Shown piece after piece: positions 18,363-57,507 of a stretch of 60,432 nt of DNA. Each line of letters opens with the position of its first letter. The first letter of the stretch is position 1. A program made the translations under genes and the position numbers. The notes beneath the pieces were generated by a model that saw nothing but the letters and a program-made list of their open reading frames with translations, had not been told where the DNA came from and made no database searches. The DNA is from Sinomonas atrocyanea. Its GTDB lineage: Bacteria; Actinomycetota; Actinomycetes; Actinomycetales; Micrococcaceae. The DNA lies in the NCBI RefSeq assembly GCF_030811715.1, contig NZ_JAUSRH010000019.1:1-60432 (forward strand), written 5' to 3'.

Positions 18363-18563
18363 ACTCCAGTTCCTCCCCGCTCTGTATGGGACCTGAGAGA
18401 TTCCGCCGGATGGTATCCGGCTTGCACCGTCGGTGAGCGCCCACAGGAGGCGCTGCTTTCCAGAGTTGCCTTGCCGCAGCGGTACAGGTGCCTGAGAGAT
18501 TCCTGGGGAGGTGTTGCTCCTACGGCGCCTGCTTGCTCTTGCTCGCAGGACTCTCCCGCCGCA
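18363..18563 (-). ncRNA. Tandem glycine riboswitch (gcvT RNA)
   Basis: On the minus strand two aptamers follow each other. The first opens with GCGGGAGAGTCC (from about 18563), contains GGAGCAA and the signature GAATCTCTCAGG near 18490-18505. The second, starting around 18470, repeats GGAATCTCTCAGG near 18390-18405 and closes with AGAGCGGGGAGGAACTGG. Tandem aptamers of this class bind glycine and usually switch on glycine cleavage genes. Only ~30-45 nt separate it from gcvP. The two signature motifs are seen directly; the exact ends are approximate. Confidence 0.93.
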
Positions 18564-18635
18564 GATCAGAGGCTGTGTGTTCAGTTGTCGCCGCCCGGGC
18601 GCGTGCGGACACGCGGATCCAAGGCTGCGTTGACC

Positions 18636-37536: not shown

Positions 37537-37839
37537 ATGGCCGCCGACTACGACGAACTGCGCTCCGACGTCAAGGAATCCCAGAACGACTCGCTCGAGG
37601 CCGTGAAGTCGGCCAGTGCGCCAGACCCGCAGAGCGTCGTGCGCGAGCTCGACGGCGACGACAGCGGCGAGAGCGGCGATCTTCCGGGCGGGGAGATCCT
37701 CACGGGTGAGCTGGCCGTGCAGGTCATCCCGCAGGGCGAGGACGAGTTCGTCTGCCAGTCCTGCTTCCTGGTCCGGCACCGCTCCCAGAAGGCCGTGGAG
37801 AAGGACGGGAACGCCTACTGCCGGGACTGCGAGGGCTGA
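37537..37839 (+). CDS. DUF4193 zinc-ribbon protein, copy A
   Basis: 100 aa. Conserved actinobacterial family of unknown function. The N terminus AADYDELRSDVKESQNDSLE is acidic and helical, the middle is an acidic linker, and the C terminus has C73, C76, C95 and C98 (CQSC ... CRDC), a four-Cys zinc ribbon. Only this copy starts with ATG; copies B and C use GTG. It is identical to copy B at 82 of 100 positions by my count. AAAGGAAGG precedes the start. A transcription-related role is sometimes guessed for the family but nothing here proves it. Confidence 0.92.
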   Translation: MAADYDELRSDVKESQNDSLEAVKSASAPDPQSVVRELDGDDSGESGDLPGGEILTGELAVQVIPQGEDEFVCQSCFLVRHRSQKAVEKDGNAYCRDCEG

Positions 37840-45719: not shown

Positions 45720-46013
45720 TCACACAATGTCACGGGGCGAGGACCAGCCCGGGCCCAGAACGCCTTGGAGGGCACCGGCGCGCTGGGCGCTCAGCCTCCC
45801 GCGGCGGTCGGCGGCCCGCTGCCCGTCCAGCCAGGATCCCAGCGTGGCCTCTGTCGCGTCGTGCGCGGCACCGGCCTCCGGTGCTCGGCCGCGCTCACGG
45901 AGGAAGGCCGACAGCTCGTTGGCTCTGACGGTGAAGTCCTGGTCTCCCTGCTGCCGCAGTGCCGGCAGGCCGGTGAAGTCCCGCGCGAACCCTGTGTGCA
46001 CGTTCCTGTTCAT
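45720..46013 (-). CDS. Isolated helicase-associated (HA) domain protein
   Basis: 97 aa. The middle reads TLGSWLDGQRAADRRGRLSA followed by QRAGALQGVLGPGW, which matches the helicase-associated domain seen repeated at the C end of some large actinobacterial helicases. No helicase domain is present and no adjacent frame extends it, so it is a stand-alone module. The ATG at 46013 has GGGGG upstream. The HA domain is thought to bind nucleic acid; role here unknown. Confidence 0.7.
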   Translation of the reverse strand: MNRNVHTGFARDFTGLPALRQQGDQDFTVRANELSAFLRERGRAPEAGAAHDATEATLGSWLDGQRAADRRGRLSAQRAGALQGVLGPGWSSPRDIV

Positions 46014-46335
46014 GCGACCCCCAATAGCCGAATGTGCGTGAGGCGAGCGCGAAAGCGGGCCCCGCTGCGGGGGCCGACTGGTCCCCGGTGACCGCGACGA
46101 TAATGCCGCATCCGTGATGCCGACAAGGGCCCTTGGGACGGGTCCATGGCCGCCCCTTCCGGCCTTGTCACACCGTCCCCGCATCACCGACGGCCGCGAA
46201 TGCGCGGCAGATCCAGCGCAGCGGGACGTGATCTCGGGGCAGCATGACAGGCAGGTGCGCAGGAATTGTCAAGTCCGTGGAGACAGCGTGGTCCCCCGGG
46301 AGGCCATCGGTGCACGCCGGCCCGGCGCGGTGGTG
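46014..46335. other. Intergenic region, no gene seen
   Basis: Between the divergent HA-domain gene and DUF4193 copy B. All frames read as out-of-phase GC-rich sequence without coherent proteins. It should hold the two promoters; no strong hairpin was found. Confidence 0.5.
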
Positions 46336-46379: not shown

Positions 46380-46682
46380 GTGGCCGCCGATTACGACGAA
46401 CTGCGCTCGGACGTCAAGGAATCCCAGAACGAATCACTCGAGGCGCTCAAGTCAGCCAGCGCCCCCGACCCGCGCAGCGTGGTGCGCGAGCTCGACGGGG
46501 ACGACAGCGGCGAGGACACCGGCCTCCCGGGGGGCGAGTTCGTCAATGACGAGCTCACCGTCCACGTCATCCCGCAGGGCGCCGACGAGTTCGTCTGCCA
46601 GTCCTGCTTCCTCGTCCGCCACCGCTCCCAGAAGGCCACCGAGATCGACGGCGTGGCCTACTGCAGCGACTGCGAAGGCTGA
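46380..46682 (+). CDS. DUF4193 zinc-ribbon protein, copy B
   Basis: 100 aa. Same structure as copy A, with the four ribbon cysteines at 73, 76, 95 and 98 (CQSC ... CSDC). GTG start; GAAAGGAAC is the likely ribosome-binding site and is shared with copy C (GGAAGGAAC). Most differences from copy A lie in the acidic linker (46-62) and near the second Cys pair. It is followed, after a small minus-strand frame, by a small Cys-protein gene that also follows copy C. Confidence 0.92.
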   Translation: MAADYDELRSDVKESQNESLEALKSASAPDPRSVVRELDGDDSGEDTGLPGGEFVNDELTVHVIPQGADEFVCQSCFLVRHRSQKATEIDGVAYCSDCEG

Positions 46683-46704
46683 GACTTCCTCGGGGCGGCG
46701 GCCC

Positions 46705-46800
46705 TCACTTTCTGCGGCGCACCACCAGCACGACGTAGATAGCGACGGCCACCGCCACCAGGGCGCCGGCACTGATCCCTGCGCTTCCACCGTTGAGCAC
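46705..46800 (-). CDS. Possible 31-aa membrane peptide
   Basis: GTG start with AGGGGGG 8 nt upstream. The peptide is a short polar N terminus (VLNGGSAGISAG), one hydrophobic stretch (ALVAVAVAIYVVLVV) and RRRK at the end, a plausible single-span micro-protein. It lies opposite to the DUF4193 copy B to small Cys-protein interval. Too short to be certain; no counterpart is seen near copy C. Confidence 0.35.
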   Translation of the reverse strand: MLNGGSAGISAGALVAVAVAIYVVLVVRRRK

Positions 46801-46922
46801 GCTAGAACCCCCCTGACGCTCTCCGTTTCCCCGACAGGGTAGCTCGTCTCCGGAGGCCCAGCCGCTCCTTCGATTCGGCAGGGATGGTTTCTCGGTCCTG
46901 CCCCTGGGGTAATTCATCCGCC

Positions 46923-47198
46923 ATGCCGCACCCAGAACCAGCCTCGCCGCTGCATGAGACGATGCTCGAGGTGCTCCGTGAGGCCCGCAGACGCGGGATG
47001 TCGCACAGCAGGCACTCGCTGCAGGACTGCCAGCTCCTGCTGGCAATCCATGCGCCAGCAGGCGATGTGACCGGAGACCCCTGCGAGGCCTGTCTGGAGC
47101 CTTGGCCCTGCAGGACCGTGCTGGGCATCCTCGGCGGCCTGCATCCCACCTCTGCGCCGCGGGCTCCCTCTGGCGACCGCAGCAACCACCACCGCTGA
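46923..47198 (+). CDS. Small Cys-containing protein, paralogue 1 (module partner of DUF4193 copy B)
   Basis: 91 aa, no known family. The first 60 residues align without gaps to the protein at 51477: PEPASPLHETMLEVLREARR, GMSHSRHSLQDC, then IHAPAGDVTGDPCEACLEP. By my count 38 of 60 positions are identical, including C36, C54 and C57. The last 30 residues are unrelated and may be read-through into non-conserved sequence. One Cys plus a CxxC pair and nearby His residues suggest metal binding or thiol chemistry. It follows DUF4193 copy B by 240 nt. Confidence 0.7.
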   Translation: MPHPEPASPLHETMLEVLREARRRGMSHSRHSLQDCQLLLAIHAPAGDVTGDPCEACLEPWPCRTVLGILGGLHPTSAPRAPSGDRSNHHR

Positions 47199-47552
47199 AC
47201 TCGACCTGCCCGAAACGGGCCCAGGATGCTCGGGTCGCCCCTCCCGCCGATCACCGCCCACGTCTGCACCGCCGCCGGGCATGAGTGTCCTAGGGCGCGG
47301 GGAAGGCGCCCGACTGGCCAATGGCCTCGATCTGGACCGGGCGCCAGCCAGACGCCTCCCGCACGCACGCCGGGCCCGGTGTCCGCACCGGCCCGTCCGC
47401 ACGCTCCCACCGTTTCTACCAAAGCGCCTCTCCCTGCGACAGGGCCGGCCGCGCGAGTCGCGGCATGTCGTTCACCCTGGCCTGGGCTCCGCACACATGG
47501 TCCGCGGCGGCCGTGTCCTCGTGTCCGATCGGCGTGCCCGTCCGAGGGGCCG
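47199..47552. other. Intergenic region, no gene seen
   Basis: About 350 nt without a supported gene. Open frames here lack coherent composition. Its right end holds TAGGAT (47553-47558), a likely -10 box for the DUF805 gene. Confidence 0.5.
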
Positions 47553-47585
47553 TAGGATCAGCTCGTCACCGACCCAGGGGGAACC

Positions 47586-48212
47586 ATGTCCAACCCGCAG
47601 CAGCCTAACCCGTACTCCTCGGACCCTCAGCGCCCCAGCCCGTACTCGTCCGAGCAGCACACCGGCCCGTACTCCCCCCAGCCGCCGTACCCGAACCCGC
47701 AGTACCAGCCACCGCAGTACCCGAACCCGGCCGGCTACCAGAGCGAGCCGCCACTGTGGGCCCCCTGGTACGACGCCCCGTTCAAGGCCGCCGTCCGGCG
47801 CGTCTTCACGAAGTACGCCACCTTCACCGGCCGCGCGAGCCGCGCCGAATACTGGTGGTGGGCGATGGTCAGCGTCGTGGTCTGGGCCGTCCTGAACATC
47901 ATCACGACTCTCGGTTCGCTCAGCGCACCGAGCCCCGCCAACGGCTACACCTACACCTCCCCCACCCCTGGGCCGCTCACGGTCATCAGCTCCATCCTGC
48001 TGGTCCTGTGGGGGCTGGCCATCGCCGTCCCGACCCTGGCGCTGACCGTCCGCCGCCTCCACGACGTGAACATGAGCGGCTGGGTGGTCCTCCTCGGCCT
48101 CATCCCGTTCGTCGGCAACATCATCGTCCTCGTCTTCACCCTGCTGCGGTCCAACCCGGCCGGCCAGCGGTTCGACCGGCCCACCGCTCCTGCCCCGGCC
48201 TACAGCGCCTGA
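47586..48212 (+). CDS. DUF805 family membrane protein
   Basis: 208 aa. An N-terminal ~55 residues rich in Pro, Tyr, Gln and Ser (NPYSSDPQRPSPYSSEQ) precedes the DUF805 core: KYATFTGRASRAEYWWWAMV, then three more hydrophobic segments and LALTVRRLHDVNMSGWVVLL, the family signature. Function unknown, probably four membrane helices. AGGGGGAACC precedes the ATG and a -10-like TAGGAT lies ~28 nt upstream. A terminator follows at 48333. Confidence 0.9.
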   Translation: MSNPQQPNPYSSDPQRPSPYSSEQHTGPYSPQPPYPNPQYQPPQYPNPAGYQSEPPLWAPWYDAPFKAAVRRVFTKYATFTGRASRAEYWWWAMVSVVVWAVLNIITTLGSLSAPSPANGYTYTSPTPGPLTVISSILLVLWGLAIAVPTLALTVRRLHDVNMSGWVVLLGLIPFVGNIIVLVFTLLRSNPAGQRFDRPTAPAPAYSA

Positions 48213-48332
48213 CCCCCAACGCGCTCCTGCGGCCCCAGCCGATGTAGCTCGCCGAGGCCGGGAACGCCACCAGGGCCGCGACCAAGCCCACGGCGCCGTG
48301 CACCGAACGCGACGACTGACTCGGACACAGAA

Positions 48333-48366
48333 GTGGAGGGGCCCCCAGCTGCCGGGGCCCCTCCAC
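48333..48366 (+). terminator. Terminator after the DUF805 gene
   Basis: 13-bp perfect stem GTGGAGGGGCCCC / GGGGCCCCTCCAC with an 8-nt loop, 121 nt past the stop codon. No T tract. Confidence 0.6.
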
Positions 48367-48515
48367 GGTGCGGGTTACCAATCCGCCGAGCTTGTTGGGA
48401 GAGGGAAGCTCACCTCTGCCTTATCCGGTACCCCAGACAGCGAAACCACCCGCCCGGTGCGCCCCGCCCATGCACCTCCCCGGCCCGGGCGCGGCCCGCA
48501 CATAGGATCGGCGGC

Positions 48516-48992
48516 GTGAGCACGACCCCGCACCACCGCCGGACCCTTCACGCGCTCGGCCTCCACGGCCCCTGGCTCGCCGCCCGCATCGAGGAGAGCC
48601 CCATCCTCCTCGACATCACCGAAGGCATGCCCAAGTTCGAACGCACCGTCCCCCGCCACGACCCGGAACACTTCGCCGTGCTCATCTTCGACCCGGCCGA
48701 CGGGACCCGCTTCATCGTCGAAGTCCAGACTGGGGACGCCGACACCGACCAGCTCGCCCGCGCCCTCGAACTCTGGGAGGCCGAGCGCACGCGCCTGCCC
48801 GTCGCGCACCGGGTCGTCGTAGCTGCCGAGCACATCCCGGCCGACGTCGCCCACGCCGCCGCGCTCGCTCAGGCCACCGCCCCGGTCGAACTCCTCGAGC
48901 TCCACGCCGAGCAGACCGGCAACATCGTCACTGTCCACGGCGAACCCGTCCGCCTGCCCGGCCCGGACGACCCCATCGCGCCCGGCCCCTGA
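48516..48992 (+). CDS. PD-(D/E)XK-like hypothetical protein
   Basis: 158 aa. The centre reads AVLIFDPADGTRFIVEVQTG, then DADTDQLARALELWEAERTR and HRVVVAAEHIPADVAHAAAL. A D, ten residues, then E-V-Q on a strand, followed by a helix with DQLxRAL and a VVVAAE strand, is like the nuclease core of some PD-(D/E)XK families in which Lys is replaced by Gln. This is my inference from motif spacing only. GTG start; TAGGAT (48503-48508) ends 7 nt before it, with no ribosome-binding site, so the mRNA is probably leaderless. Confidence 0.75.
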   Translation: MSTTPHHRRTLHALGLHGPWLAARIEESPILLDITEGMPKFERTVPRHDPEHFAVLIFDPADGTRFIVEVQTGDADTDQLARALELWEAERTRLPVAHRVVVAAEHIPADVAHAAALAQATAPVELLELHAEQTGNIVTVHGEPVRLPGPDDPIAPGP

Positions 48993-49004
48993 TCCGGAGG
49001 CTCG

Positions 49005-49424
49005 TCAGCGGCCCTCGGGCGTGCCCTGTTCCGTCACGGTGTCCGCGTGGCGGTGGGCGACCTTCCACTCCCCGCCCTCGCGCCGGTACACCTGCGTCGA
49101 ACGGAGCGTGAAGGTCCGCGGCTTCCCATCGATCGAGGCGGAGACGTGCTCGAGTCCTGCAGTGTAGGCCGCGTCGCCCATCACATCGAACGCTTGGAGC
49201 TCGAACTCGTACCATGTGCAGTCGGAGAAGCTCTGCTCGAGGAATTGGAACGCCTCCTCGACCTGCTGCTGCCCGTACGCGTTCCGCCATGCGCCCAGGA
49301 TGCTGACGGGCTCGTCCCGTGACCAGATGGCCCGGCGCGGGTCGGCGTCCCCGTTGTGCAGGGCCACCTCCGCATCGCGCAGCGTGCTCCTGATCCAGTC
49401 CAGGAAGGCGTCTCGGTCGGTCAT
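49005..49424 (-). CDS. NTF2-like (SnoaL/DUF4440) protein
   Basis: 139 aa, full-length cone-shaped NTF2 fold. RDAFLDWIRSTLRDAEVALH forms the first helix, PVSILGAWRNAYGQQQVEEA the usual turn, and FTLRSTQVYRREGGEWKVAH the last strands. Such proteins are small-molecule binders or isomerases, or have unknown stress roles. The stop is 12 nt from the convergent PD-(D/E)XK-like gene. The 279 nt beyond its start, up to 49703, contain no supported gene. Confidence 0.88.
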   Translation of the reverse strand: MTDRDAFLDWIRSTLRDAEVALHNGDADPRRAIWSRDEPVSILGAWRNAYGQQQVEEAFQFLEQSFSDCTWYEFELQAFDVMGDAAYTAGLEHVSASIDGKPRTFTLRSTQVYRREGGEWKVAHRHADTVTEQGTPEGR

Positions 49425-49703
49425 GCCGCCAAGGTACGCGCGGCCCCACTCCTCGGCAACGGCCCAGCAGGACCCACTGCCCCCCTGCCCGACCCGATCA
49501 GGCCCGGCCTCTGACGAGGGGCCCTGACAGGCAGTCCCATTGATCTCGCTCCTGCACCATGCGGAGCATGCCCCGTCGTCCTCGATCATGACGCCGAGGG
49601 AGTCTGTTGCCCCCCCAAGACCCCCCGGGGGCCGGCTCGGTGACGAGCCGATGCGTGTTCCGACGCCCCACTGCCAGTCGCTCGTTCGGTACGACGGCCG
49701 GAT

Positions 49704-50561
49704 TCAGAAGAGTGTGAAGCCGTTCCACCCGTGGCTGACCCTGTGTGGTGCCGTTGTTGGGCTGAACACATAGAGGACACCGCGGCTGTCACGGCCCATC
49801 AGGTCGGGTTCGCCGTCCTTTCCGTCCCAGTCCACAGGGGAGATGACCGCGGTGTACGAGGGTCCGGTGGGGCTGATCTGGCGGCGCGGGTAGAACGTGC
49901 CGTAGGGGTCGTGGGCGTAGAGCCAGAACTTGCCGGACTTGTCGATGGCGACGACGTCCCCATAGTTGCCGTCATTGCTCCAGTCGCCCACCGAGAGCAC
50001 TTTCGTGTATTGGCCGAAGCCTCCGGCGACTCTCCTGGGGCTGAAGTGGCGGGTGGCGGTGTTGAACAGGTAGTTCCACAGGACGCCGCACTTGTCGCGG
50101 ACTAGGATGCCGCTGCTCGTAGGCGTCCCTATGTAATTCTGGATCGTGGTGAAGGTGTTCCAGCCGGAGCCGATCTTCACCCGGGGCTTGAACGTTCCGT
50201 TGCCGTTGCCCGCGTAGAGCCAGAGGTTGCCGTCATAGCCCCGGGCGACGATGTCGTTGTGGCCGCTCCGGGTGAAGTATCCGGTGATGATGGCGGTCAT
50301 GTGGCTCCACCCGCCACTGATCCTCTTCCGTGCCAGGAAGCCGCCATAGCCGTTGCCGGGGTAGAGCCACAGGGTGCCGGAGCTGTCGCGTGCGAGGACG
50401 TCCGGGTTGCCGTCGCCATCGAAGTCACGCGGGTAGTCGAAACGGGTGGATGCGGCCTGCACCGTTGCGGGCAGCGGAGCGGCTTGAGCCGTCCCGGCAA
50501 GCCCCGTCGTCATGACGAGCGCAGCGATGCCTGTTACTACACGCAATGTGGCTTTGTTCAT
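49704..50561 (-). CDS. Secreted VCBS/FG-GAP repeat protein
   Basis: 285 aa. Signal peptide to about AQAAP (28). Then repeats of ~55 residues, each with an acidic loop and WLY: DFDGDGNPDVLARDSSGTLW, GHNDIVARGYDGNLWLYAGN, YGDVVAIDKSGKFWLYAHD, GEPDLMGRDSRGVLYVF. They form an incomplete beta-propeller with calcium-type DxDGDG loops. Such proteins bind surfaces or polymers. The predicted transcript begins at the ATG itself (see the promoter), with no ribosome-binding site. Confidence 0.88.
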   Translation of the reverse strand: MNKATLRVVTGIAALVMTTGLAGTAQAAPLPATVQAASTRFDYPRDFDGDGNPDVLARDSSGTLWLYPGNGYGGFLARKRISGGWSHMTAIITGYFTRSGHNDIVARGYDGNLWLYAGNGNGTFKPRVKIGSGWNTFTTIQNYIGTPTSSGILVRDKCGVLWNYLFNTATRHFSPRRVAGGFGQYTKVLSVGDWSNDGNYGDVVAIDKSGKFWLYAHDPYGTFYPRRQISPTGPSYTAVISPVDWDGKDGEPDLMGRDSRGVLYVFSPTTAPHRVSHGWNGFTLF

Positions 50562-50566
50562 GCTGC

Positions 50567-50617
50567 AAGGTAGGCCCGCCGTTTTTTCCCGTCAATGAGG
50601 AGTAACCGGTGAGTAAC
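50567..50617 (-). promoter_or_regulatory. Leaderless promoter of the VCBS gene with upstream direct repeats
   Basis: Minus-strand -35 TTGACG (50595-50590), 17-nt spacer, -10 TACCTT (50572-50567). The start point falls on the ATG (50561). Just upstream GTTACTC occurs twice, 11 nt apart (50617-50611 and 50606-50600), and GGTGAG-TAACG-CTCACC overlaps them. This resembles a response-regulator activation site. Confidence 0.6.
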
Positions 50618-51073
50618 GCTCACCCTTTTGGCACGAGCGAGGGGATAACCAGTCCGACCACTCCTTCCTGGTAACGCTTGCACGACCGTATGCGTGCAAA
50701 GACGAGTGGATGGCCGACGGCCGGTTGCAGACAATTGCATCGCCCTGAGCAACGTACGCAATGTGCATTCGACTCGGTGATAGCGGCCGGCAACTATGGG
50801 AATGAGCAGGCTGGCGCCGCTACGGTCTACGGCAGACCGATTGGTCAGCAGGCGTAGGGGTGCGCTCCGTTGCAGGGCCGGGAGGTAGGGCGGCATGGAT
50901 GGCGGCTCATCTCCGGCAGCGGCAGCACCGTCGCGCTCACCACCCGGCCCAGAGTAGAGCCCGGGGCACGGCCGCGGAACACCTCGCGGGGCCTGCACCG
51001 TAGCGGGATCTGGGCGCAGGTCCTCTCTCGGTGATTCCGCACACGTTATGAAGACGGGCGCATCCAGCTGGGG
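50618..51073. other. Intergenic region, no gene seen
   Basis: 456 nt, lower in GC than its surroundings. The minus-strand frame across it has no recognisable protein character. Possible small RNA or regulatory space; no clear tRNA, riboswitch or strong hairpin was found. Confidence 0.4.
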
Positions 51074-51079
51074 TACAGT
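51074..51079 (+). promoter_or_regulatory. -10 element of DUF4193 copy C
   Basis: TACAGT in CTGGGGTACAGTTACG, 41 nt before the GTG. It fits the TACNGT pattern of copies A and B. Confidence 0.45.
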
Positions 51080-51119
51080 TACGTCGCTCATCAGCTCTCT
51101 GGAAGGAACAGCGCGCCAA

Positions 51120-51416
51120 GTGGCAGCCGATTACGACGAACTTCGCTCTGATGTGAAGGAATCCCAGCATGAGTCGCTGGAGGCCGTGAAGTCGGCCAAC
51201 AAGCCCGATCCGCGGTCTGTGGTGCTCGAGCTCGATGGGGACGACTCCGCCGAGGAAGGCCTGTCCGGTGGCGAGATCGTCAACGACGAGCTCACCGTCA
51301 TGGTGGTCCCGCAGGGCGCCGACGAGTTCGTGTGCCAGTCCTGCTTCCTGGTCCGCCACCGCACGCAGAAGGTGGTTCTGGGCGGGGTCGAGTACTGCCG
51401 CGACTGCGAGGGCTGA
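51120..51416 (+). CDS. DUF4193 zinc-ribbon protein, copy C
   Basis: 98 aa. Same N terminus and ribbon (CQSC ... CRDC). The acidic linker is two residues shorter (DDSAEEGLSGGE) and RSQKAVEKDGN is replaced by RTQKVVLGGVE. GTG start with GGAAGGAAC upstream. It is the most divergent of the three copies. Followed after 60 nt by the second small Cys-protein gene. Confidence 0.92.
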   Translation: MAADYDELRSDVKESQHESLEAVKSANKPDPRSVVLELDGDDSAEEGLSGGEIVNDELTVMVVPQGADEFVCQSCFLVRHRTQKVVLGGVEYCRDCEG

Positions 51417-51476
51417 CCCACGGGTTCTGCCGTACCCCCGGCTTCCCCTCCCGGCCGTTCGGGCAATGTCTTCTCC

Positions 51477-51668
51477 ATGTTTCCACCGGAACCGGCCCTG
51501 CCGCTGCACGAGACGATGCTTGAGATGCTGCACGCTGCCCGCCGGCGCGGCATGGCGCACGAGGAGCACTCCCTCCCCGTGTGCGAGCTCCCGCTGGAGA
51601 TCCATGCCGCGGCCGGCGCGCTGGTAGGAGAACCCTGTGCCGGCTGCCGTGAGCCGCACAACGACTGA
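51477..51668 (+). CDS. Small Cys-containing protein, paralogue 2 (module partner of DUF4193 copy C)
   Basis: 63 aa, no known family. PEPALPLHETMLEMLHAARR, GMAHEEHSLPVC and IHAAAGALVGEPCAGCREP line up without gaps with the protein at 46923, with Cys at 36, 54 and 57. It ends soon after the CxxC motif, which suggests that the conserved ~60 residues are the whole functional unit. Start ATG; no strong ribosome-binding site. With copy C upstream it forms the same two-gene order as at 46380-47198. Confidence 0.7.
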   Translation: MFPPEPALPLHETMLEMLHAARRRGMAHEEHSLPVCELPLEIHAAAGALVGEPCAGCREPHND

Positions 51669-52063
51669 CATTGGAGGCCTCAAGCGGTCGCCCCGCCGGC
51701 CGGGGGGATCCGAGACGGGGCGCCGCGTGCCGGCTTCCCATCCCGAAAGGCGGCAGGCCGGCCACCTTCAAGGTATGGCCGGGCGCCGCGTCGGCCCAGA
51801 GGACTTCGTCCCCGGCACTTGGCCGGCCGGCCGGGGACGGTAAAGAGGTGCTTTCCCAAGGGCCGCCCGCGGAGCGGAGAGCAGCTTCCGCACTTCGCCT
51901 CCCAACCCCCCGGACACCGGCAAACGAGGGGCTCGAGGAACTGGGCGTGGGCGAAGGTCCGCCGTGACTCTCGGACGCGGTGCGGATCGGGAAGTGCGCA
52001 GACCCATCATCTGCGATCTGTCCGGGTGTCTGTCGGCCAGGCCTCCCCTCGCGCGGCAGGAAG
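51669..52063. other. Intergenic region with one hairpin
   Basis: About 395 nt, no gene supported. CCGGCC-ACCTT / AGGT-AT-GGCCGG (51758-51782) forms a hairpin about 90 nt past the small Cys-protein gene and could be its terminator. Confidence 0.45.
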
Positions 52064-52578: not shown

Positions 52579-52655
52579 TGGAGCCCCCTGCCGGATTCGA
52601 ACCGGCGACCCTCTGTTTACAAGACAGATGCTCTGGCCAACTGAGCTAAGGGGGC
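52579..52655 (-). tRNA. tRNA-Thr (anticodon TGT)
   Basis: 77 nt with encoded CCA (52579-52581). The 7-bp acceptor is GCCCCCT / AGGGGGC, the D arm includes AGCTCAGTTGGCCAGAGC, the anticodon loop is CTTGTAA with anticodon TGT, and the T arm is GCCGGTTCGAATCCGGC. TGT reads ACA (and by wobble ACG) threonine codons. Stand-alone transcription unit with its own terminator. Confidence 0.97.
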
Positions 52656-56190: not shown

Positions 56191-56418
56191 GGCGCATCGT
56201 CCGCATCGTGGACGTTGCGCACGTCACATTATTCAACTCGATGTGATCCATGCCATACTCACTGTGTGAGCGAGGGCGCTGCCCTCGTTCCTGATGCTGT
56301 GGCACACTGGCGGCGCCACCTTCGGCGGCCAGTGCACCACACCCCTCGGGGACACAACTGAACAACAAGAACCATTCACTACGGATCGTCCGGCACGTAC
56401 CTGCCGGTGAAGGGATCG

Positions 56419-57507
<1,089 letters not shown>

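Follow-up and report, generated by a model that had tools for sequence, protein, structure and literature searches.

The window, a 60,432-nucleotide (nt) stretch of Sinomonas atrocyanea DNA (contig C19 of a 4.23-Mb genome, NZ_JAUSRH010000019.1), contains two genes for an unnamed small cysteine protein, here termed SCP, each of which follows a divergent copy of the DUF4193 family (PF13834). By sequence comparison, the SCP proteins form a multi-copy family, found mainly in Sinomonas, that shows the mark of purifying selection and a conserved His/Cys pattern, and whose genes are preceded by a stress-type promoter box, the feature that is new here. With about even confidence, we interpret the SCP proteins as stress-induced small regulatory adaptors with a metal site, which were duplicated together with DUF4193 in one block and are not obligate partners of it. 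The features concerned are as follows (aa, amino acids).

37537..37839, plus strand: DUF4193 variant copy A (PF13834, 105 bits; no SCP match nearby)
46380..46682, plus strand: DUF4193 variant copy B (start GTG; PF13834, 102 bits; C73, C76, C95, C98)
46887..46911, plus strand: predicted SigF-type stress promoter of SCP-B (GTTT-N16-GGGTA, ends 11 nt before the ATG)
46923..47198, plus strand: SCP-B, small protein with putative metal site (91 aa; H43/C54/C57/C63 plus C36)
51120..51416, plus strand: DUF4193 variant copy C (start GTG; PF13834, 83.5 bits)
51441..51465, plus strand: predicted SigF-type promoter of SCP-C, one mismatch (GCTT-N16-GGGCA, ends 11 nt before the ATG)
51477..51668, plus strand: SCP-C, truncated copy (63 aa; without C63 and the C-terminal stretch; last three residues non-homologous)
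51656..51679, no strand: site of a net loss of ~70 nt in comparison with the paralogous block on contig C1 (from DNA comparison)
51684..51806, plus strand: conserved structured RNA-like element behind the module (~125-130 nt, three hairpins; five copies in this genome)

Two SCP genes and the truncation of copy C

The original prediction had noted a small gene behind each of DUF4193 copies B and C, in the same direction and at unequal spacing. Both points were confirmed, with open reading frame (ORF) starts at 46923 and 51477, which lie 240 nt (SCP-B) and 60 nt (SCP-C) behind the DUF4193 stop codons. The longer spacing of the B pair may be due in part to a possible 31-aa membrane peptide ORF on the minus strand (46705-46800, by eye); the counterpart of this gap in genome G003 measures only 53 nt. 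The gapless alignment of the first 60 residues of the two proteins has 38 identities, as had been counted, and 10,000 shuffles of one protein reach 14 at most. At the DNA level, 49, 44 and 32 of 60 nucleotides are identical at codon positions 1, 2 and 3, respectively, with a nonsynonymous distance (dN) of 0.27 and a synonymous distance (dS) of 0.97. The codon-position pattern and the lower dN indicate that SCP-B and SCP-C are, or recently were, translated genes.

Comparison with contig C1 revealed that window positions 51120-51656 are 90.9% identical to a block of 537 nt, intergenic DNA included, and that the match ends within the SCP gene and restarts at 51679. Alignment of copy C against this block leaves a net gap of ~70 nt, which takes out W61-P62-C63 and the C-terminal GILGGL-type stretch. 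Of the three shared cysteines originally described, C36, C54 and C57 are indeed common to both proteins; the conserved residues of the family, however, also include a fourth Cys and a His, and only three cysteines were seen because the deletion in SCP-C removed C63. As the identity spans the whole block together with its intergenic DNA, DUF4193 and SCP were copied in a single piece of DNA, which bears out the earlier proposal of a joint duplication, and copy C was damaged later. Contig C13 holds another relative of DUF4193 copy C, 95.5% identical over 51060-51416 and keeping some 60 nt of upstream DNA, in which a 70-aa ORF resembling a helix-turn-helix protein (Pfam matches below the cut-offs) replaces SCP (G000:C13:84152-84800; L121 6153-6793).

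The SCP family and its putative metal site

The genome of the window has six SCP genes: the two in the window and those at C1:32616, C3:344726, C4:173165 and C13:31697. Close and divergent members taken together occur in 11 of 15 Sinomonas genomes, and 9 of the 15 match the profile of the close members. A scan of the other 280 genomes of the family gave four weak matches, at least one of which looks false, lying inside a response-regulator frame. A class-wide draw of 394 genomes produced weak matches in 15, the window's own genome not counted, and 12 of these 15 are from one single genus, whose SCP-like proteins are short and share a similar end, LH.P...C.GC...WPC. At most 19 candidates per genome were scored in the Sinomonas and family scan and at most 14 in the class-wide scan, so that the absence of SCP from other genera is only tentative. 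Start codons were set by alignment; three C3-type copies then start with CTG or CTA, and their true starts may differ.

Residue conservation was counted over 18 close and 15 divergent members (G001:C8, G011:C1 and G014:C1:3519425 left out). H43 is present in 16/18 close and 15/15 divergent proteins, C54 in 16/18 and 15/15, C57 in 17/18 and 15/15, and C63 in 16/18 and 15/15, with the exceptions confined to four close copies. P45, G51, W61 and P62 are conserved as well, whereas C36 occurs in 17/18 close members and is replaced by Trp in 15/15 divergent ones. This conservation points to a probable metal site, H-x10-C-x2-C-x5-C, with C36 as an extra of the close group. The metal bound at such a site would most likely be zinc, and the preceding N-terminal part is predicted to be helical. 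In all 17 pairs computed, which were hand-picked out of many, dS exceeds dN, indicating that SCP evolves under purifying selection; one copy, G002 C1:1045570, is disrupted.

That the small protein cannot be assigned to any family was upheld by profile searches. No Pfam family reached E<=10 with the four close and five divergent proteins scanned, and NCBIfam yielded nothing for the two SCP of the window; divergent SCP was scanned there only as part of a fusion, in which 25 listed families match outside the SCP part. A PDB profile search returned one match, a designed triosephosphate isomerase (TIM) barrel, at E 0.0031, which was rejected as chance with the single stretches at i-Evalue >500. PHROGs gave weak SCP matches alone (best E 0.0066), PADLOC none for three proteins, and phages searched with a divergent SCP none, while SCP-B had one match among plasmids, a fusion protein of pSA01 described below. 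No mention of SCP was found in the open-access literature searched, in which the family has no name to search by.

A stress-type promoter box ahead of SCP genes

When the upstream regions were aligned at the start codon, gapless, GTTT fell at -36 and GGG(T/C)A at -16, separated by a 16-nt spacer (15 nt in two copies) of variable sequence. According to passages of PMC4694148, the SigF consensus of Mycobacterium smegmatis is GTTT-N(14-19)-GGGTA, and a box of this type, GTTT-N15/16-GGG(T/C)A, precedes 13 of 18 close SCP genes (nine with GGGTA, four with GGGCA) versus 1 of 344 background genes; SCP-C fits the consensus only with one mismatch. Allowing one mismatch in GTTT as well as GGGAA, the counts are 16/18 and 3/344. 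For close and divergent members, GGGTA was counted at -20 to -10 and occurs in 9/18 close and 7/13 divergent SCP genes versus 5 of 362 background genes; this divergent set leaves out L168 (two candidate starts), the fusion, G001, G011 and G014:C1:3519425. The 344 or 362 background genes, of >=120 aa, are codon-usage calls in the fetched loci, and wrong starts among them would lower the background rate. In the box columns, mean pairwise identity reaches 0.85, compared with 0.46 for the spacer and 0.37 farther upstream; the six paralogues of the window's genome show 0.78, 0.45 and 0.34, respectively.

The SCP-B promoter is the sole match to GGTTTN(15-17)GGGTA in the window, with 0.03 expected. 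Across the genome, GGTTT-N15-17-GGGTA has 10 sites, all of them <=125 nt ahead of a gene start, versus three for the reversed control. The genes behind the 10 sites encode two SCP, a ferritin-like protein, a proteasomal ATPase, a short-chain dehydrogenase/reductase, a zinc alcohol dehydrogenase, a Na/H exchanger, a PAP2 protein and two proteins without a Pfam family, the gene at the SCP-B site being the ORF itself and not a script call. The ferritin-like protein is presumably of the Dps type, and the set looks like a general-stress regulon. As the -10-like box ends 11 nt before the ATG, the SCP mRNA is predicted to be near-leaderless.

Within 150 nt of DUF4193 variants, the SCP box was found at 0 of the 12 tested out of 22. 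Eight of these 12 have GGTGTAC ~50 nt ahead of the start, and most have a GAAAGGAA-like ribosome site. Given the missing box and the common GGTGTAC, the DUF4193 genes are probably transcribed from a promoter of another type, and since SCP has its own promoter, the two genes do not appear to form simply one operon.

Adjacency of SCP and DUF4193

The window's genome encodes six DUF4193 copies, one strong (C8, 147 bits) and five divergent, three of the latter in the window; the strong (~147-bit) copy is present in 15/15 Sinomonas genomes, while among 14 control genomes a match was found in Corynebacterium glutamicum alone. Copies A, B and C score 105, 102 and 84 bits against a cut-off of 25, with the matches of B and C at 46383-46676 and 51123-51410 above the curated cut-off, and the four-Cys ribbon (C73, C76, C95, C98) is invariant across the three, which are likely zinc ribbons. 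The AlphaFold2 model of DUF4193-B has a predicted local distance difference test (pLDDT) score of 62, near 80 in the ribbon part, and found no Foldseek match at E<=0.001; viral contigs searched for DUF4193 relatives gave none.

In this genome SCP lies behind DUF4193 at three places (the two in the window and C1), so that three of six SCP and three of six DUF4193 genes are paired. Across the 15 Sinomonas genomes, 9 of 18 close SCP genes lie within 250 nt of a same-strand DUF4193 gene, eight downstream and one upstream, with such pairs in five genomes, and as the chance of SCP within 1 kb of DUF4193 is 0.1-0.4% per copy, this adjacency is not due to chance. By contrast, 0 of the 17 divergent hits examined adjoin DUF4193 (G014:C1:3519425 was left out, and its coordinates are also far from DUF4193), and of the 22 variant DUF4193 genes in the 15 Sinomonas genomes, 9 are paired with SCP and 13 are not. 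In the second genus with SCP-like proteins, the single DUF4193 gene in each of the 12 genomes lies on another contig or >0.8 Mb away, although contig ends could hide a neighbour.

The original prediction took the pair to be kept together by selection, which these counts and the C13 copy without SCP do not support. It also named homologues lying mostly away from DUF4193 as a finding that would refute the proposal, and by this rule the outcome is mixed. A neighbouring DUF4193 gene is thus common for SCP but not required. The adjacency is explained equally well by common descent of one block and by functional coupling; in the reading preferred here, one DUF4193-SCP block was duplicated and then partly broken up. 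The DUF4193 tree, with support for 0 of 10 branches, does not separate the two.

A fusion of a receiver-like domain with SCP, and signalling neighbours

The pSA01 protein matched in the plasmid search, SA2016_RS20320 (210 aa; L147 3569-4201), consists of a receiver-like N-terminus, an Ala/Thr-rich linker and a divergent SCP domain, and its record name is response regulator transcription factor. The acidic pair of its receiver part is lost (by eye), so that the protein may depart from the usual mode of phosphorylation. Its neighbours are MarR regulators and two other receiver-like ORFs (by eye). The SCP genes at C4 and G003:C9, which look orthologous, lie tail-to-tail with a gene for sigma-70 regions 2, 3 and 4, which may be of the SigB/SigF subtype.

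At G002:C1:944000-964000 (L168, L124), a sensor histidine kinase gene adjoins a divergent SCP gene, and farther along are a lone receiver, an Hpt-like gene (22.6 bits versus 24.6) and a transposase (by eye); none of this was used as proof. Two-component neighbours were rejected as evidence, since in the window's genome a receiver gene is found within 5 kb for one of six SCP genes, with ~0.4 expected, which is not above chance.

Proposed role and alternative explanations

We propose that the SCP proteins would combine a helical N-terminal part with the putative H-x10-C-x2-C-x5-C site. A sigma factor of the SigF/SigB type may switch their genes on under general stress, giving near-leaderless mRNAs, and the proteins might then serve in transcription or signal control, as small regulatory adaptors or output modules. 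The regulatory part of the proposal is made because one natural SCP, preceded by a receiver-like domain, occupies the position of the DNA-binding domain. DUF4193 variants would be expressed from a different promoter type and may share the stress response with SCP, which would need no adjoining DUF4193. A bolder version, which we regard as possible but doubtful, holds that a stress sigma factor drives a lineage-specific, expanding set of tiny HCCC metal-switch proteins, translated from near-leaderless mRNAs, that can replace the DNA-binding domain of a response regulator, an undescribed transcription output or redox/zinc-sensing module that duplicates with zinc-ribbon DUF4193 genes and a structured RNA.

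Several observations weigh against the adaptor proposal. The exact box is missing from 5 of 18 close SCP genes, and from two even with one mismatch, and GGGTA is missing from 6 of 13 divergent ones; the conservation of the box partly reflects descent. The assignment of the sigma factor draws only on a consensus taken from another bacterial family. The figure of <=125 nt to a gene start covers the 10 forward sites only. In two of the 12 DUF4193 variants (copy C and G003b), GGGTA but no GTTT is seen ~50 nt upstream of the start. The promoter check outside Sinomonas covered the second genus (matches G299, G381 and G511 of other genera left out), where the loose pattern occurs at 4/12 loci and GTTT plus GGGTA at 0/12. 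Only one receiver-SCP fusion was found, and its PF00072 match is weak (E 1.9e-5, 25.2 bits against a cut-off of 30.2); the AlphaFold2 model of SCP-B, from four sequences, has a pLDDT of 44 and is uninformative. The count of two-component neighbours adds to these points.

The nearest of the alternatives, though an unlikely one, is a stress-induced thiol or zinc buffer or store that has no regulatory partner and came to lie beside DUF4193 by hitchhiking duplication. The small size, the Cys content, the stress-type promoter and the many dispersed copies would fit it, but the strong conservation of W-P, of the His and of flanking residues, together with the receiver fusion, argues against a mere store. 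The obligate two-protein complex sharing a metal, which was the first interpretation of this locus and in which unpaired copies would act in trans, we consider slightly less probable still. Adjacency recurs in five genomes, in both orders and for half of the close copies, the unit was duplicated jointly and both proteins are Cys-rich; against it stand the other half of the close SCP genes, the divergent hits and the 13 variant DUF4193 genes, all unpaired, as well as the box that DUF4193 lacks, the C13 copy of DUF4193C without SCP and an intact DUF4193C that adjoins a truncated SCP-C. The metal site of that proposal remains plausible, whereas its obligate partnership is not supported.

A WhiB-like (Wbl) regulator that holds a [4Fe-4S] cluster and binds a sigma factor is suggested by the C-x17-C-x2-C-x5-C spacing of close SCP (C36-C54-C57-C63) and its GILGGL-type stretch, which recall the C-xn-C-x2-C-x5-C and GVWGG of Wbl, and hhalign aligns CxxCx5C..GILGGL with CxxCx5C..GVWGGL (P 0.016). 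Against 10 phage and plasmid Wbl proteins, however, the hhalign probability is 2.8%, and 0.2% with the wider SCP family; the first Cys is a Trp in every divergent member counted, WGG occurs in 0 of 33 SCP rows, and Pfam has no match, which together make a Wbl protein very unlikely. Most improbable of all is that the small ORFs are unexpressed remnants of a repeated block. The truncation of SCP-C, the disrupted copy in G002 and the negative codon scores of SCP-B and SCP-C would suit remnants, but dN is below dS in every pair computed, the promoter box is conserved and there are syntenic orthologues.

Should the adaptor proposal hold, it would tie family-less small proteins, in a testable way, to how soil actinobacteria respond to general stress. 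Neighbourhood alone misled on the partnership, and it is the promoter that hints at when the SCP gene is used. If both the metal site and the receiver fusion are true, SCP would be a new small output or sensor module in actinobacterial stress control, beside Wbl and zinc anti-sigma factors.

Other features of the window

The structured RNA-like element behind the module has, besides its five copies, a sixth match of 22 nt in this genome; 14 copies were found in 4 of 118 genomes searched, one of them on the presumed pSA01 contig. Fourteen of 41 pairs have changes on both sides, and 87% of cells are paired versus 35-52% when slid, on an alignment fitted to the model, which favours structure. Similarity stops sharply at the end of the element in most of 88 pairs and runs on in some. 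Rfam has no match for it; both a small RNA and a small mobile element are conceivable.

Several neighbouring genes also recur near SCP genes. The FG-GAP repeat protein gene at 49704-50561 (minus strand) has a copy with 88.6% identical DNA on C3, <1 kb from another SCP copy, and the same arrangement is seen in G003:C14. A small ORF at 45720-46187 (minus strand) resembles the helicase-associated (HA) domain (27.7 bits versus 28.4) and has a paralogue beside the C13 SCP gene too. The small protein without a family encoded at 48516-48992 (plus strand) has paralogues in the corresponding region of G002, G003 and G005, and by eye is similar to proteins directly ahead of divergent SCP in L056, L057 and L058. 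The remaining features are listed below.

18372-18568, minus strand: tandem glycine riboswitch
52582-52655, minus strand: tRNA
56364-56422, plus strand: msiK RNA

Comparison with known systems

Wbl proteins have four invariant cysteines that bind [4Fe-4S], as stated in parts of PMC6282962. The SCP proteins are likewise small and, in 16 of 18 close members, have C-x2-C-x5-C followed by [GDAV]-[IV]-[LIF]-G-G (by eye); this x-[IV]-[LIF]-GG stretch resembles the G[V/I]WGG of Wbl and is seen in none of the divergent members. They differ in that divergent SCP has a conserved His in place of the first Cys, and in the lack of WGG and of a significant profile match. Zinc-binding class I anti-sigma factors (ZAS), the RsrA type, have the signature Hx3Cx2C according to sections of PMC7406223. 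Small size, His and Cys ligands and a presumed stress control are shared with SCP, whose spacing is H-x10-C-x2-C-x5-C and which has no Pfam match, and membership was rejected.

SA2016_RS20320 resembles response regulators of the NarL/FixJ type in starting with a receiver-like domain, but it carries an SCP domain where the regulators on C1 and C13 carry a LuxR/GerE domain. A meeting abstract listed as reference 67 of PMC11767811 describes DUF4193 of Mycobacterium tuberculosis, Rv2699c, as a Zn-binding protein in its title. The neighbour genes in the window are clear members of this family with a four-Cys ribbon; however, they are extra, divergent paralogues (84-105 bits), and they have no profile relationship to SCP (hhalign 0.1%). 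Similar to mycobacterial SigF promoters, the Sinomonas box has the GTTT-N14-19-GGGTA form and also stands ahead of stress-type genes, whereas it ends ~11 nt from the start codon.

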